A stretch of DNA of 64,000 nucleotides from Oscillospiraceae bacterium (GTDB lineage: Bacteria; Bacillota; Clostridia; Oscillospirales; CAG-272), in the NCBI GenBank assembly GCA_015063795.1, contig SVTL01000002.1, positions 1 to 64,000 of the forward strand, written 5' to 3'. The notes under the pieces are model-generated. The model worked only from the letters and a program-made list of their open reading frames with translations. It had not been told where the DNA came from and did no database searches. Positions 29,088-36,101 of this stretch are shown here, in pieces. The position numbers were made by a program, and so were the translations under genes. Each line of letters opens with the position of its first letter. Positions within the stretch are counted from its first letter, which is position 1.

Positions 29088-29510
29088 TCAATATTCTTTA
29101 TGATCGCCTTTTCCCATGCCGCAAACACGGATGCGGTGGCTTTTTGCCCCGGTCACTGCCTCGATCAGCTCGGTGATCTTCTTTTGAAGCGTCGGGTCGT
29201 CCCCGCCTTGACAGATGACGGCAACGCCGCGGATCTCGGGCGCCTTCCGATCCACCAGATTCTGCATGGCATACACGCTTTCGCCGCCGTTTTCGGTGGT
29301 GAGCAGAACGCGGCTTCCGCTCTTTCCGCAAACGGTATCCACCAAAGAGGCAATGCGGGCTTCCAGCTCGGAGGCGTAGGTGAGCGTTTCCGACCGTTTT
29401 GTTTCGCCGCCGGGCAGAAGCACCAGACAGAGCCCGATCAACAGCATGGCGCCCACCGTCAGCGGCAGGCGGAAGCGCTTGAAAAGAGCCATCGCCTTAT
29501 TCCTGTTCAA
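29088..29510 (-). CDS. spoIIIAG: Stage III sporulation protein AG
   Basis: TM segment then YASELEARIASLVDTVCGKSGSRVLLTTENGGESVYA...APEIRGVAVICQGGDDPTLQKKITELIEAV; position in the spoIIIA order. Confidence 0.92.
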   Translation of the reverse strand: MNRNKAMALFKRFRLPLTVGAMLLIGLCLVLLPGGETKRSETLTYASELEARIASLVDTVCGKSGSRVLLTTENGGESVYAMQNLVDRKAPEIRGVAVICQGGDDPTLQKKITELIEAVTGAKSHRIRVCGMGKGDHKEY

Positions 29511-29952
29511 GAACGATCACCTCACAGTCCAAGCGGTCACGCAGATAGCTTTCCACGTCGCCGATCAGCCAGCCGCGGCTGTTTTGACCGAGCACGACCG
29601 TCACGCATCCGATCCCGCCCTCCCTGAAAGAAACGCGGACATCGGCCTCATCACGGCTCAGACCGAATTTGTCAGCCAGCATCTGCCGCACACCGCTTTC
29701 GAAGCGGTAGACGGATGCGATGCCGTCTGCGGTGCTTTCTTTCGCCGTTTCGTTGCGGAAAAGGGAGGGAAGAGAGAGAGCCGAAAGGGCGGTGTCCTTC
29801 AGCGGCAGGAGAAGGGAGGCGGTCAGAGCAAGGGTGAGAACGAAGCGGATACAGCGGTCAAGCCCGGCGTTTTTCTCCGAGGCGAACACCGAAAACACAC
29901 CGCTGCAGAGGCAGGCGGCACTCAGCGCCTGCAGATAGGCAGAGGACATCAT
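29497..29952 (-). CDS. spoIIIAF: Stage III sporulation protein AF
   Basis: Two N-terminal TM segments and position between AE and AG; ATG 29952 with AAGGAG. Confidence 0.85.
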   Translation of the reverse strand: MMSSAYLQALSAACLCSGVFSVFASEKNAGLDRCIRFVLTLALTASLLLPLKDTALSALSLPSLFRNETAKESTADGIASVYRFESGVRQMLADKFGLSRDEADVRVSFREGGIGCVTVVLGQNSRGWLIGDVESYLRDRLDCEVIVLEQE

Positions 29953-29971
29953 GGAGCACTCCTTTCGCACA

Positions 29972-30009
29972 GATGAGCGGATGTTGATGAGCGGATGTTG
30001 ATGAGCGGA
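29972..30009. repeat. Short tandem repeat, 14-bp unit GATGAGCGGATGTT, ~2.7 copies
   Basis: Exact tandem copies at 29972-29985 and 29986-29999 plus a partial third at 30000-30009, between spoIIIAE and spoIIIAF. Confidence 0.95.
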
Positions 30010-30027
30010 CAGCGGATGCAGGCGGCT

Positions 30028-31143
30028 TCAGGCGGCGGCATAGGTCATGCTGACAAACAGCGCAAAGGCGATCACAAAGATTACCGCCGCCGAGCAGACC
30101 GCCGCCAGCATCAGACTGAGGATGTCGCCGAAGCGTCCGATGGCGCTTCCTTCCTCCTTCATGCCCATCACATCCGCCGCGGTCTTGGCGGTCATCAGCG
30201 CGAGCTTTTGAAGCACCAGAGACAAAAACACGGGCAGAACCAGCAGAAAGACCACCGCCAGCCCCAGGTAGCCCAGCGTCCCCTTGACCACCGAAAGCCC
30301 CGAAAGCACCGTGCGCACCGCATCGCCCAGCGAGGAGCCGACAACGGGCACAAAGCTTCCCGCAAACTTCATCCCCCTTGCCGCCGCGTTGTCCGCTGAA
30401 AGTGACAGTGCATTCTGAAAGAGCAGGACGATGGAGAGAAGGCTCATGGCCGAGGCGAGCAGAAAGGAGTAGACCTTCTTGATCAGCGAGAGGACGGGAG
30501 AAAGATCCAGCAGCGGAGAAAAGGAATCGGCGATCGCCAGCGTCAGAGAGACCTTGATCAGAGGCGAGAGGGCGTAGATGCAGAGATTTTCCACCAGCGT
30601 CAGCGCCAGCAAAAGCCCCGCGCTCTGGGAGGCGGCGGTGACGGCATTTCCGCCCGAGGCGGTCAGCAGCGTCATGTAGGGCAGCAGCGAGGAGACAAAG
30701 ACGGTCACCGTTTCAAGAAAGGAGAGCACGCTCTGCAGAAGAGGATCGATGCGGCCGTACAGAAGTGCTGTGAGGCAGACGACCGACAGCATTTCCTGCA
30801 GACGGGCGAGAGAAGGCGAGACGATCTCCTTTCGCAGAGCGCTGAGCGCCGAAGACAGCAAAAGAAAGCCGAACAGCGAGGCAAAAGCGGCGGTCAGCGA
30901 GGGGAAGAGGGCAGACACCTGCTCGCCGACGGCATCAAAAAAGGCATCCGCACCGTCAAACACCGGCTTTTGGCTGTCATAGCCATCCCCCAGCCTGTCC
31001 CGCACTTCTTCGGGGATCAGCGCATTGATCTCCTCATCGGAAAACAGATCGCTCTCCGCCTGACAGGGCAGAATCAGAATAACGGCGGTAAGCACCAGAA
31101 AAAGGACGGCCGCCGATGCGTACCGAACACCTCTCCCCCTCAT
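30028..31143 (-). CDS. spoIIIAE: Stage III sporulation protein AE
   Basis: 371 aa polytopic membrane protein; position and family-like sequence. Confidence 0.93.
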   Translation of the reverse strand: MRGRGVRYASAAVLFLVLTAVILILPCQAESDLFSDEEINALIPEEVRDRLGDGYDSQKPVFDGADAFFDAVGEQVSALFPSLTAAFASLFGFLLLSSALSALRKEIVSPSLARLQEMLSVVCLTALLYGRIDPLLQSVLSFLETVTVFVSSLLPYMTLLTASGGNAVTAASQSAGLLLALTLVENLCIYALSPLIKVSLTLAIADSFSPLLDLSPVLSLIKKVYSFLLASAMSLLSIVLLFQNALSLSADNAAARGMKFAGSFVPVVGSSLGDAVRTVLSGLSVVKGTLGYLGLAVVFLLVLPVFLSLVLQKLALMTAKTAADVMGMKEEGSAIGRFGDILSLMLAAVCSAAVIFVIAFALFVSMTYAAA

Positions 31144-31523
31144 GCGCCGAGCCTTTCCGCGAAAGCAAACAGCTCTTTGACCATCGGCAGAGCCAGCAGC
31201 AGGATTTCGGCCTTTCCCACCGTTTCCAAACGGCCTGCCAAAGCGCTTTCTCCGCTGTCACGGCAGAGATCGGCGCAGGTCTGCACCAGCAGAGACACAC
31301 CGAGGCATTTGAACAGAATGCGTGCATAATCGGAAAAGGCGGCGCCTTCGCTTTGCTCGCGCAGATAGGTCAGCACCGGCATCAGCGCGGTCAGAGCGGC
31401 GGAGAGCAGGAGCAGAGAGCAGAGAAGGGAGGAGGCACGGGCAAATTCCTCGTTGCCTTTGCGGATCATCAGCGACAGGGTAACGGCGATCAGCGCGCCG
31501 CCGCACAGCTTGAGAAGTTCCAT
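31140..31523 (-). CDS. spoIIIAD: Stage III sporulation protein AD
   Basis: Small polytopic membrane protein between AE and AC. Confidence 0.9.
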   Translation of the reverse strand: MELLKLCGGALIAVTLSLMIRKGNEEFARASSLLCSLLLLSAALTALMPVLTYLREQSEGAAFSDYARILFKCLGVSLLVQTCADLCRDSGESALAGRLETVGKAEILLLALPMVKELFAFAERLGA

Positions 31524-31527
31524 TTTT

Positions 31528-31722
31528 TCAAATCCCGAAGATGGTTTTGATCTGACCGATCAATTCGCCCACCTCGCCCACCAGCATCAGCAGGACGATC
31601 ACGATCCCTGCCAGCGAGACCAGCATCGCCTGCTCGTCCCGTCCCGATTTGGAGAGCAGGATGCAGGAAACGCTGACCAGAAGCCCCGCGCCTGCCGTTT
31701 TCAACAAAATGGCAATGTCCAT
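31528..31722 (-). CDS. spoIIIAC: Stage III sporulation protein AC
   Basis: 64 aa, two TM segments, MDIAILLKTAGAGLLVSVSCILLSKSGRDEQAMLVSLAGIV. Confidence 0.93.
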   Translation of the reverse strand: MDIAILLKTAGAGLLVSVSCILLSKSGRDEQAMLVSLAGIVIVLLMLVGEVGELIGQIKTIFGI

Positions 31723-31773
31723 TTTCGATTCCTTTCGTTTGATCGTTTTCTGTTGTGTTTCTCATTCAAAGCA

Positions 31774-32256
31774 TCAGATCAGCAGGATCACCGGCAGAAG
31801 TCCGCCTGTCACGCCCAGCCAGAGAGAAAGCCTTTCATCCTTTGCCCCCTGCTCGCGCTCACTCTTCAGCGTCTCCTCCAGCAGCTGCAGATGATGGCGG
31901 CAGAGGTCGCTTTGGTGAGACACGTCGCTCTTGCCAAGCCCCTTGCCGAAGGAGAGGAGAATGGCTTTGATCTTGCTTGAAAAGAGCCCGTCGGTCCCCT
32001 CGATCGCCGCCTCCCACCCGCTGTTCCGCAAGAGCGGAAGAAAACCGCAGTTCTCCAGCGGTTGGTTTTCATATGCGCCGAACAGTTCCGGCAGAGGAAC
32101 GCGGAGCGTTTCGATTCCGTTCTGAAGAAAGCGGATCAGATCGGTCATGGCCTCGCTTGCTTCAAGTGTACGACGGATGCGCCCGGCGCGGACATAGCCC
32201 ATGCAGAACGGACCGAGGAAGAGAAGAAAAAGCCCGATCGCTTTCGGAAGCGTCAT
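31774..32256 (-). CDS. spoIIIAB: Stage III sporulation protein AB
   Basis: 160 aa with TM segments at both ends; position between AA and AC. Confidence 0.88.
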   Translation of the reverse strand: MTLPKAIGLFLLFLGPFCMGYVRAGRIRRTLEASEAMTDLIRFLQNGIETLRVPLPELFGAYENQPLENCGFLPLLRNSGWEAAIEGTDGLFSSKIKAILLSFGKGLGKSDVSHQSDLCRHHLQLLEETLKSEREQGAKDERLSLWLGVTGGLLPVILLI

Positions 32257-32262
32257 CGCCGA

Positions 32263-33141
32263 TCATCCCCCCTTTCCATAAATCCTGTCGGTCTCGGTCA
32301 GCGTCAGACGAAGCGCGTCGCTGAGCCTCCGAAGCCCAACGTAGGCATCGAACACATCTCCGTCCTTTAAGACGGCAAACAGCGGCCTCGCCAGCAGAGA
32401 ACGAAGCGACTCGGCATGGCAGGTGGCGATCACCTCGGCACCGCTTTTTTTCGCCTCAAGCAGAGCGGCCGCGTCCTCCCTGCTCCCGATCTCATCGCAG
32501 AGGATAAACTGCGGCGAGAGGGTTCGGAGCGCAATGGAAAAGCCCTTGTCCTTGGGGCATCCCGACAGGCAGTCGATGAAGGTGTCGCTCATCGCTTCGG
32601 CATCAAACAGCTCGCCGCGGCTGTCGATCAGGCACACTCGCTTCTCTCTGCCCAAAGAAAGCGCCAGATCGCGCAGAAGGGTGGTTTTTCCTCCGCCCGG
32701 CGGCGAATAGAGGAGCAGGGAAGCGCGAAAGTCCTTTTCTTTCAGAAAGCGCATCAGCTCGCCGCCAATGCCGTAAAGAAAACGGGGGATGCGGATGTTC
32801 AAAGAGGAGATGTCGGTGAGCGTGCGGATCACGCCGCTGTCGGTCACGGCTCGTCCGCAGACTCCCACACGGCAGGCGCCGAAGCGGAGAAAGCCCTCGG
32901 TCAGCGTGTCGGCATGGGCATAGAGCGAGCCGCCGCAGAGGGCAAAAAAGAGCTTCTCCAGCGCTTCGCCCCGGCAGAAGACGGCCGTGCGGCGGCTTTC
33001 GCCTTTCACGGTCAGCGAAACATGCCCGTCCCGCCGGAAACGGATCTCATCCACCGAGGCCTGCTTGGTACATTCTTCGCGCAGAGCGTCCCCCATCTCC
33101 CTCGGCAAAAGAGAGAGGATGCGTTCGATCATCTTGTCCAT
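32263..33141 (-). CDS. spoIIIAA: Stage III sporulation protein AA (AAA-type ATPase)
   Basis: LLYSPPGGGKTTLLRDLALSLG Walker A and FILCDEIGS Walker B. Start trimmed to ATG 33141; the longer track ORF runs into the divergent pcrA region. Confidence 0.93.
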   Translation of the reverse strand: MDKMIERILSLLPREMGDALREECTKQASVDEIRFRRDGHVSLTVKGESRRTAVFCRGEALEKLFFALCGGSLYAHADTLTEGFLRFGACRVGVCGRAVTDSGVIRTLTDISSLNIRIPRFLYGIGGELMRFLKEKDFRASLLLYSPPGGGKTTLLRDLALSLGREKRVCLIDSRGELFDAEAMSDTFIDCLSGCPKDKGFSIALRTLSPQFILCDEIGSREDAAALLEAKKSGAEVIATCHAESLRSLLARPLFAVLKDGDVFDAYVGLRRLSDALRLTLTETDRIYGKGG

Positions 33142-33229
33142 GGTAGAATGTATGCGGCCTTTTGCGGAAGGATTCCTGCGAAAATATTTGTTTTTTGTAA
33201 TATTTTGATGAACATTTGGTGAAAAACGG

Positions 33230-33258
33230 TTGATTCTTTTTAGAATATCATGTATAAT
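33230..33258 (+). promoter_or_regulatory. Putative sigma-A promoter of pcrA
   Basis: TTGATT, 17-nt spacer, TATAAT. Confidence 0.6.
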
Positions 33259-33325
33259 AGATATAATAAGTACTGATTCCGATTGGATCCAAGCTGTCAA
33301 AACAGCTGGAAGAACGGGGGTTACC

Positions 33326-35734
33326 ATGGCTGGAATGGAAAACAAAACCGCAGAGCGCTTTCTCAAAGCGAAGCGCGCGCTGTTTGATAAGAAGTTCGGC
33401 TTTCTGAACGAAGCGCAGAGAGAGGCGGTCTTCACCGTCAACGATCCGCTGCTGATCCTGGCGGGTGCGGGAAGCGGAAAAACGACGGTTTTGGTCAACC
33501 GCATTGCCTTTATCATACGGTACGGAAACGCTTATTTTGACCAGCGTCTGCCCGAGGGGTTGAATGAGGAAGAGATTGCCCGCCTTGAGGGCGCGTCCGA
33601 TCTTTCGCCCGAGGAGATCGGCGAATTGCTGGATGAATATGCCGTTTCGCCCTGCGAGAGCTACCGTGTGATGGCCATCACCTTCACCAACAAGGCGGCC
33701 AACGAGATCAAGAGCCGTTTGAACGCCATTCTGGGCGATGCCGCCGAGGAGATCTGGGCGGGCACCTTCCACTCCATTTGTATGCGTATGCTCCGCCGCT
33801 TCCCCGAAAAAGCAGGGCTTGCCGCGGGCTTCACCATTTACGATGCCGATGATTCGAAAAAGCTTGTTACCGAGTGCATCAAGCAGCTGAACATCGACGA
33901 AAAGAGCCTGCCTCCCAAGGCGGTGCTCACCGAGATCAGCCAGGCCAAGGACCGCCTGTGCGATGTCAACGAGTTTGACGAGACCGCTGGGCAGGACTTC
34001 CGCCTCCGCATGATCTGCAATGTCTACCGTATGTACCAGCAGCGGCTGGAGGAGGCCAACGCCGTCGATTTTGATGATATCATCATGAAAACGGTGGTCA
34101 TGCTCCGCGATCATGAGGATGTCCGCTCCTTCTATCAGAAGCGCTTCCGCTATCTGTGCGTGGACGAGTATCAGGACACCAACCATGCCCAGTTCATGCT
34201 GGCCAAGCTGCTGTCGGGCGGATACAACAACCTGATGGTGGTGGGCGATGACGACCAGAGCATTTATAAATTCCGCGGCGCCACCATTGAAAACATCCTG
34301 CATTTCGACCGCGAGATGCAGAACGTGAAGATCATCAAGCTCGAGCAGAACTACCGTTCCACGCAGAACATTCTCGGTGCGGCCAATTCGGTCATCCGCA
34401 ACAACTTCGGAAGACGGAGCAAAACGCTCTGGACCGACCGCGGCGAGGGTGAAAAGGTACATATCAAAAAGACCGAGAACCAGAACGAGGAAGCCAAGTT
34501 CATCATCAATAAGATCATGGAGATGGTGATCCGCGAGAAGCGGAAGTATTCGGATTTTGCGGTGCTCTATCGCTTCAATGCCTTCTCGGGCGGACTGGAA
34601 AGCATCTTCACGAAGAGCGGCGTGCCGTACCGCATGATCGGCTCGCTCCGCTTTACCGACCGCAAGGAGGTCAAGGACATCTTTGCCTATCTGTCGGTGA
34701 TCAACAACCCCTCCGACAACCTGCGCTTGAAGCGCATCATCAACGAGCCCAAGCGTAAGATCGGCGAATCGACCGTCTCGGCGGTGGAACGGTTGGCCGA
34801 GCTGCATATGGAATCGATGTTTTCCATCATGGAGAATGCCGAAAGCCATGCCGCGCTGGTCAAATCGGCCGGCAAGCTGAAGGAATTTGTGGAGCTGATC
34901 CGTTCCTTCCAAAGTCTGGCCAAGGAGCTTCCGCTGGACCGTCTGGTGGCCGAGGTCATCGACCGTACCGGCTACCGCGCCATGTTAGAGAGCGGCGGCG
35001 AAAGCGAAAAGGAAAAGATCCAGTATGTGGACGAATTGATCTCCCGTGCTGTGGAGCATGCCCGCGAAAACGAGCAGGCGGATCTGGCCACCTTCTTGGA
35101 GGAATATGCGCTGGTGTCCGATATCGACAACTACGATGCCGACAGCGATGCCATCGTGCTGATGACCATCCACAGCGCCAAGGGACTGGAATTCCCCGTG
35201 GTCTTCCTGCCCGGCTGGGAGGACGGCGTGTTCCCCAGCGAAAAGGCGGTCATTGCCGATGAGGAGCTGGAGGAGGAGAGACGTCTGGCCTATGTGGCCA
35301 TCACCCGTGCCAAGGAAAAGCTCTTCTGCTCGTATGCCCGTGAGCGTCTGCTGTACGGACGCACCATGTACGGCCGCCCGTCCCGCTTCCTGTCCGAGAT
35401 CCCTGCGGAATTTACCGATTCCGAGCAGCCCAAGCCCTTGAGCGAGGTGCAGGCCGAATCCGATCGCCCGGCCAGACGGAGCCGCTCGCGCGAGGCTTCG
35501 ATCTCCAAGGAATTTTTCAAGCAGCCCGTGGTCACAGGCAATGTGGGGCGCACCACCGGATACGAGCGCTTCCTGCCCGGCGAGGAGGTTGTGCATCTGA
35601 CCTTTGGTAAGGGTACCATCCTCTCGTCCAAGGAGATCGGCGCGGATATTCTGTATGAGGTCGCCTTCGATTCGGTGGGAACCAAAAAGCTGATGGCAAC
35701 GTATGCCAAGCTGAAGAGAAGCGGCGGTCATTGA
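33326..35734 (+). CDS. pcrA: ATP-dependent DNA helicase PcrA/UvrD
   Basis: LNEAQREAVFTVNDPLLILAGAGSGKTTVLVNRIA, VDEYQDTN, VGDDDQSIYKFRGA, MTIHSAKGLEFPVVFLPGWEDGVFPS. Confidence 0.96.
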   Translation: MAGMENKTAERFLKAKRALFDKKFGFLNEAQREAVFTVNDPLLILAGAGSGKTTVLVNRIAFIIRYGNAYFDQRLPEGLNEEEIARLEGASDLSPEEIGELLDEYAVSPCESYRVMAITFTNKAANEIKSRLNAILGDAAEEIWAGTFHSICMRMLRRFPEKAGLAAGFTIYDADDSKKLVTECIKQLNIDEKSLPPKAVLTEISQAKDRLCDVNEFDETAGQDFRLRMICNVYRMYQQRLEEANAVDFDDIIMKTVVMLRDHEDVRSFYQKRFRYLCVDEYQDTNHAQFMLAKLLSGGYNNLMVVGDDDQSIYKFRGATIENILHFDREMQNVKIIKLEQNYRSTQNILGAANSVIRNNFGRRSKTLWTDRGEGEKVHIKKTENQNEEAKFIINKIMEMVIREKRKYSDFAVLYRFNAFSGGLESIFTKSGVPYRMIGSLRFTDRKEVKDIFAYLSVINNPSDNLRLKRIINEPKRKIGESTVSAVERLAELHMESMFSIMENAESHAALVKSAGKLKEFVELIRSFQSLAKELPLDRLVAEVIDRTGYRAMLESGGESEKEKIQYVDELISRAVEHARENEQADLATFLEEYALVSDIDNYDADSDAIVLMTIHSAKGLEFPVVFLPGWEDGVFPSEKAVIADEELEEERRLAYVAITRAKEKLFCSYARERLLYGRTMYGRPSRFLSEIPAEFTDSEQPKPLSEVQAESDRPARRSRSREASISKEFFKQPVVTGNVGRTTGYERFLPGEEVVHLTFGKGTILSSKEIGADILYEVAFDSVGTKKLMATYAKLKRSGGH

Positions 35735-35777
35735 AGCGCAAGCCGTCTTCGCTTGAAAAATCAAAAAAAACAAACAT

Positions 35778-35832
35778 AAAACCTCTTTCTTTGGGTACAC
35801 TAAGGCTGTACTTTCAAAGAAGGAGGTTTTTT
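35778..35832 (+). promoter_or_regulatory. 16-bp hairpin whose 3' arm contains the SD of the DUF1540 gene, followed by a U-tract
   Basis: AAAACCTCTTTCTTTG (35778-35793) pairs with CAAAGAAGGAGGTTTT (35815-35830) with a single G-U wobble; inner GTAC/GTAC stem; AAGGAGG lies in the 3' arm; TTTTTT follows. Confidence 0.8.
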
Positions 35833-35835
35833 GAC

Positions 35836-36045
35836 ATGAACAACAACACCAACAACACCAATAACACCAACACCAACAATTGGTGCTGCTCGACCAACCG
35901 CTCCATCGAGTGCACGGTCAAGCAGTGCAAGAACCATTGCGGCAGCGAGAACTATTGCTCGCTGAACAAGATCCGCGTCGGCACGCATGAGGCAAACCCC
36001 ACCATGATGCAGTGCACCGACTGCGAGTCCTTTGAAGTAAAGTAA
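35836..36045 (+). CDS. DUF1540 domain-containing small Cys-rich protein
   Basis: 69 aa; WCCSTNRSIECTVKQCKNHCGSENYCSLNKIRVG...MMQCTDCESF pattern after an Asn/Thr-rich N-terminus. Confidence 0.85.
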   Translation: MNNNTNNTNNTNTNNWCCSTNRSIECTVKQCKNHCGSENYCSLNKIRVGTHEANPTMMQCTDCESFEVK

Positions 36046-36055
36046 TCCGACAGCA

Positions 36056-36101
36056 AAAGGAGAAAGAGGGCGTTTTTCAAAGACGTCCTCCTTCTTTTTT
36101 T
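36056..36101 (+). terminator. Terminator downstream of the DUF1540 gene
   Basis: AAGGAGAAAGAGGGCGT...ACGTCCTCCTT hairpin followed by CTTTTTTT. Confidence 0.7.

Follow-up and report, generated by a model that had tools for sequence, protein, structure and literature searches.

The window analysed here, a 64-kb stretch of DNA (64,000 nt) from an Oscillospiraceae bacterium, carries on its forward strand a pcrA-like DNA helicase ORF (33230–35734, +) and, co-directional and downstream of it, a gene of the DUF1540 family (35836–36045, +). The helicase ORF has NCBIfam model TIGR01073 (pcrA) as its best match (E 1.1e-238), with a score of 794 bits that is under the curated cut-off of 911. The DUF1540 assignment made in the preliminary description is borne out by a PF07561 score of 45.5 bits (cut-off 22.1). 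The gene encodes a protein of 69 aa with an Asn/Thr-rich N-terminus and a cysteine-rich domain; the Asn/Thr run, NNNTNNTNNTNTNN (35836–35882, +), is missing in most orthologues. The unit is closed by an intrinsic terminator-like hairpin (36066–36090, +), an 11-pair stem followed by CTTCTTTTTT. Next comes a SpoIIIAH-like gene (PF12685; 36131–36760, +). This gene seems detached from its operon, because it lies on the + strand behind the DUF1540 gene while the remainder of the apparent spoIIIA operon lies on the − strand at 29088–33516, across pcrA.

The interval between pcrA and the DUF1540 gene is occupied by a hairpin. Its 5′ arm, AAAACCTCTTTCTTTG (35778–35793, +), contains an anti-Shine-Dalgarno (anti-SD) sequence and pairs with the 3′ arm, CAAAGAAGGAGGTTTT (35815–35830, +), at 16 of 16 positions with one U.G wobble; both this pairing and the inner GUAC/GUAC helix (GTAC/GTAC in DNA) are as originally reported. 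The AAGGAGG sequence sits in the 3′ arm, its SD core AGGAGG (35821–35826, +) 9 nt upstream of the ATG (35836–35838), and the T6 tract (35827–35832, +), a terminator-like U-tract, comes directly after the stem. Folding of positions 35760–35900 with RNAfold gave a minimum free energy of −35.0 kcal/mol; among 200 dinucleotide shuffles of these 141 nt (mean −18.0, sd 3.1) none was as stable (z = −5.45). The hairpin DNA has no second copy in the 2.16 Mb genome, which rules out a mobile or dispersed repeat, and the second DUF1540 copy of the same genome (L002) is without such a hairpin. An Rfam search of the hairpin region returned no family near its gathering score, on which basis the reading as a riboswitch or known structured RNA was rejected.

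A stable, GC-containing stem of 16 bp followed by T6 is what an intrinsic terminator requires. The loop, for which 3–8 nt would be usual, is not short: the outer stem encloses 21 nt, with the inner helix among them. We therefore call the hairpin ‘terminator-like’ only. The terminator scan of the window did not list it among its calls, since its loop exceeds the size of a classical terminator; neither the sequence nor the scan revealed any other terminator between pcrA and the DUF1540 gene. The pcrA stop codon is located 40 nt upstream of the predicted −35 box described below, and transcription from pcrA would extend into the hairpin.

Upstream regions of DUF1540 genes were drawn from 59 relatives, the species collection and 295 genomes of the family. 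Refinement of a two-box motif from a seeded start over 103 of these regions converged to GHATA, a 14-nt gap and GGnCATACTA, found in 98 of the 103 (about 95%). By its sequence this motif is of the sigF/sigG form; the spacing given for sigF/sigG elements in the cited extract of PMC5942855 is 14–15 nt. The copy in the window consists of a predicted sigF/sigG-type −35 box, ACATA (35774–35778, +), and a predicted −10 box, GGGTACACTA (35793–35802, +; form GGnCATACTA / GGnnAnAnTR), which occupies the loop and inner helix. The boxes are 14 nt apart, a gap shared with most family members, and the copy lies 32 nt from the ATG; apart from the first −35 base, where the preferred G is absent, it has the boxes and spacing of a sigF/sigG promoter. 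When the window gene and its counterparts in genus g4 (see below) were excluded from training, the held-out score of this copy was 13.35. Two of 1000 shuffles reached this value, and across both strands of the whole 64-kb window no more than two other places score higher.

The preliminary description had noted a weak resemblance of GGTACACTA, in the loop, to a mother-cell −10 element. This assignment has to be corrected: GGGTACACTA, separated from ACATA by 14 nt, fits the sigF/sigG −10 shared by DUF1540 genes, and with the held-out result of 2 in 1000 shuffles the forespore motif displaces a mother-cell (sigK/sigE) reading. The genome does encode sigF/sigG: the sigG gene scores 404.6 bits against NF006071 (cut-off 372), though it is below the cut-off of TIGR02850, and a sigF-like gene was assigned by its best profile match, which is under the cut-off of that profile. 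With the last −10 base set as −7, after the cited extract of PMC5942855, the predicted transcription start is at 35809 (about ±2 nt, +), downstream of the −10 box. The promoter inside the hairpin, which the preliminary description had inferred, thus looks real and, judging by sequence and comparison, of the forespore (sigF/sigG) type.

The 5′ arm coincides with the spacer of this promoter and would be missing from the gene's own transcript, given the predicted promoter position. Computed energies for the two kinds of RNA are far apart. On RNA reading in from pcrA the SD is paired: its opening costs 16.0–16.2 kcal/mol and its unpaired probability is 0.00. On RNA started at 35806–35815, the predicted native transcript, opening costs 1.8–2.2 kcal/mol. 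A cost of 16 versus 2 kcal/mol predicts that the ribosome-binding site (RBS) is closed or open solely by origin of the transcript. Two further suggestions of the preliminary description, that the SD is masked on read-through RNA and that a terminator-like stem stands behind pcrA, also gain support, from sequence as well as from the comparison that follows.

In another genus, g4, the layout is kept in four of the five species having the DUF1540 gene (G003, G140, G183 and G093): the −35 box comes first, the spacer contains a CCTCC or CCTTC anti-SD, the loop contains the −10, and the 3′ arm contains the SD. The SD-adjacent pairs alternate between A-U and G-C, and the inner-stem sequences are wholly different. 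When arms were exchanged among the five species that carry the stem, a small set, none of the 120 combinations had a total energy as low as the cognate assignment of 5′ and 3′ arms. The stem withstands the refutation test of the preliminary description (a stem not conserved, or without covariation, in close relatives): a second genus retains it with arms of other sequence, even though the majority of DUF1540 genes are without it.

The U-tract follows the stem in four of the five species with a stem (the window, G003, G183 and G140) and is missing in G093. Wherever the upstream gene lies close by and in the same orientation (the window, G003, G140 and G183), the stem has −19 to −27 kcal/mol and a U-tract (4/4). 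With a divergent neighbour, the stem of G093 has −9.4 kcal/mol and no U-tract, yet full SD pairing; in G255, also with a divergent neighbour, the value is −4.9 kcal/mol and there is no SD stem. A stem strength that follows the orientation of the neighbour fits insulation against read-through. The upstream gene, pcrA in the window, is another gene in g4, hence the hairpin goes with DUF1540; a conserved pcrA–DUF1540 neighbourhood was not found among the relatives tested. By PcrA identity, g4 has a closer relative than the window genus (55% between the window genus and G003; 59% for the nearest), which implies that the element is either ancient or of multiple origin.

Across 115 DUF1540 genes, SD masking showed no significant general association with co-directionality of the neighbour (p 0.68). 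The mean masking over DUF1540 genes is raised modestly (0.397 versus 0.291 in shuffles, z 4.7), while masking above 0.9 outside the window genus (g1) and g4 was seen six times with about five expected, that is, at chance. Strong masking as a trait of the whole family is thereby rejected, and these three results together indicate that the strong element is a feature of the lineage and not DUF1540-wide.

We consider it probable, from the sequence and its comparison, that the hairpin forms a self-insulating start of a forespore gene, in which one structure would act as terminator, as lock of the SD and as carrier of a sigF/sigG promoter. The hairpin would end transcription arriving from pcrA (the efficiency of termination is here a prediction); on RNA still reading through, the DUF1540 SD would be locked in the 16-bp stem and its translation presumably silenced. 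The same hairpin would contain the gene's own promoter, to be used by sigF/sigG: its −35 would lie immediately ahead of the 5′ arm, the 5′ arm would be its spacer, and its −10 would be located within the loop. RNA started there would be without the 5′ arm, so that the SD would be open and translation would take place in the forespore only.

A simpler explanation is a plain intrinsic terminator of pcrA packed against the next gene, the 3′ arm of which doubles as RBS, with the promoter overlap and the masking as by-products. The U-tract behind the stem in four of five species, a stem strength that tracks neighbour orientation and the lack of an alternative terminator between the two genes are all as it would predict. 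However, it does not account for G093, where full SD pairing is retained with a divergent neighbour and no U-tract, nor for a hairpin that accompanies DUF1540 when the upstream gene changes, nor for a −10 kept in the loop; we regard it as unlikely. An upstream-started RNA on which a ligand, an RNA or a protein opens the stem for both elongation and translation, i.e. a regulated attenuator, is very improbable. Terminator/SD hairpins of such type do serve as expression platforms of riboswitches, and one pattern match in a relative (L246) precedes an ECF-transporter-like gene, but the space between the pcrA stop and the stem is only some 40 nt, no partner for an alternative pairing was observed, Rfam gave no family match, and orthologues have the promoter in the same position, many of them without a strong stem. 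A factor that opens the stem, which had been offered earlier as the alternative to an inner promoter, is superfluous. Finally, a long inverted repeat spanning a promoter spacer could be the DNA operator of a dimeric regulator acting on the promoter. Here the half-site centres are too distant for a typical operator, and the arm sequences vary across related species but still pair, as suits an RNA helix and not a fixed site for a protein; we give this reading hardly any credence.

The principle of the self-insulating start proposed for the window is already known. In phage T4, the SD of gene e and of I-TevI is closed on the long early transcript but open on the one started at the late promoter, which lies within the region encoding the 5′ strand of the hairpin (PMC3014915, PMC2988022); the longer transcripts of gene e are translated about 100-fold less (PMC3014915). 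By analogy, gene e shows that such a principle can work. What the T4 genes e (lysozyme), soc, 49 and I-TevI share with the window, where it is predicted, is an SD sequestered on upstream-initiated RNA only, a stage-specific promoter in the 5′-strand region and a native RNA without that strand. Unlike T4, the window comes from a spore-forming bacterium and has sigma sites of the forespore type, its stem has a U-tract and resembles a terminator of the upstream gene, and the anti-SD falls precisely in the promoter spacer. For sigG (spoIIIG) of B. subtilis, the cited extract of PMC5942855 proposes that a hairpin of >20 bp blocks translation of read-through RNA; transcripts from the sigG promoter itself are unable to form it. 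As far as that extract goes, both cases have a sigF/sigG promoter (predicted in the window), whereas the gene is a different one, the arm in the window is the spacer, the layout recurs at several genes and no terminator role is described for the sigG hairpin, in contrast to the terminator-like stem here.

Like intrinsic (Rho-independent) terminators, the window stem is stable, is followed directly by T6 and stands behind a co-directional gene; unlike them, it has a long, interrupted, promoter-bearing loop, and its 3′ arm is the RBS of the next gene. The DUF1540 (PF07561) protein CdeA of C. difficile is an exosporium protein (PMC7677010). The window protein, like CdeA, is small, cysteine-rich, from a spore former and has a domain of unknown function; CdeA is found in the exosporium, whereas the promoters of the genes analysed here are, by sequence, of the forespore type. 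Among the open-licence papers searched we found no description of such an element for DUF1540 or spoIIR. The fusion with a terminator-like U-tract and the recurrence of the layout with several sigma classes look new, and these, together with the use of the spacer as anti-SD, are the differences from T4 and sigG.

The layout was also searched for at other genes. In the window's own genome the pattern ACCTC..GAGGT..ATG gave 19 matches versus 24 in the control, i.e. no excess. The sole other match standing out there, with a long stem before a gene, is L186 (C4:1698–1756, −), a closely similar hairpin (ACCTCTCTTCTTTTGATG...CATCAAAGGAAAGAGAGGTTTTTTATCATG) at a VWA-domain gene; its loop contains TACAAT, and it has no clear −35. 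A search for ACCTCC...GGAGGTTTTT...ATG in 118 genomes of the family found 20 hairpins, many of them ordinary terminators ahead of spurious ORFs, and the reversed control found none. Several matches in the broad, TTGACA and TGAATA searches are plain terminators before spurious short ORFs; these were excluded from counts.

With TTGACA required before the 5′ arm, 24 matches were found in 395 genomes versus five in the control. In eight of the 24, the −10 lies exactly 17 nt from TTGACA and agrees with TATAAT at 5–6 of 6 positions, and the ORF that begins 5–8 nt after GGAGG has 180 aa or more; this set with sigmaA promoters includes genes for a GDSL hydrolase, uracil-DNA glycosylase, MntP, an S24 repressor, a nitroreductase and DapF. 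With TGAATA required instead, there were 30 matches versus three in the control. Eleven are spoIIR by sequence, two of them confirmed by PF09551, from genera g3, g22, g28 and g64 (L291–L294, L303, L305, L307 and L313–L316), and most of these terminator/promoter/RBS hairpins have −10 sites such as GGTCATGCTA. Three others are yabP-like (L300–L302, genus g71; one confirmed by PF07873), with a sigE-like −10, CATATAATG, inside the 5′ arm. Arm exchange favoured cognate pairs in the spoIIR set (p 5e-5) and in the sigmaA set (p 2.5e-4), with related, non-independent sequences within both; since CCTCC and GGAGG were selection criteria for both sets, the test bears on the rest of the stem.

We lean slightly towards the view that clostridial spore formers of this family reuse one compact hairpin that combines an upstream terminator, a promoter and a switchable RBS, with interchangeable sigma factors. 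The reusable element would place the anti-SD within the promoter spacer and the −10 within the loop, and could be fitted with different sigma factors: sigF/sigG (DUF1540, spoIIR), sigE-like (yabP) or sigmaA (MntP, DapF, uracil-DNA glycosylase and others). If this is true, a gene so equipped would be insensitive to transcription of its neighbours, in its RNA as well as in its protein output. Sporulation needs genes such as spoIIR to be silent until the right compartment and time, and an element of ∼60 bp that ignores read-through would explain how developmental genes are safe behind vegetative genes in compact genomes. The design, an anti-SD between −35 and −10, is recognisable from sequence and can be counted in any genome, and the element would serve synthetic biology as a ready-made insulated expression part. 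The spoIIR hairpins in four genera may merit a separate study.

Two further observations concern single loci. In G139 a terminator/SD hairpin (L246) stands ahead of the ECF-transporter-like gene mentioned above and may be the expression platform of a riboswitch. In two genera, related membrane-anchored proteins of 159 aa, family unassigned, are encoded behind ACCTCC...GGAGGTTTTTT hairpins (L243 in G134 and L260 in G020).
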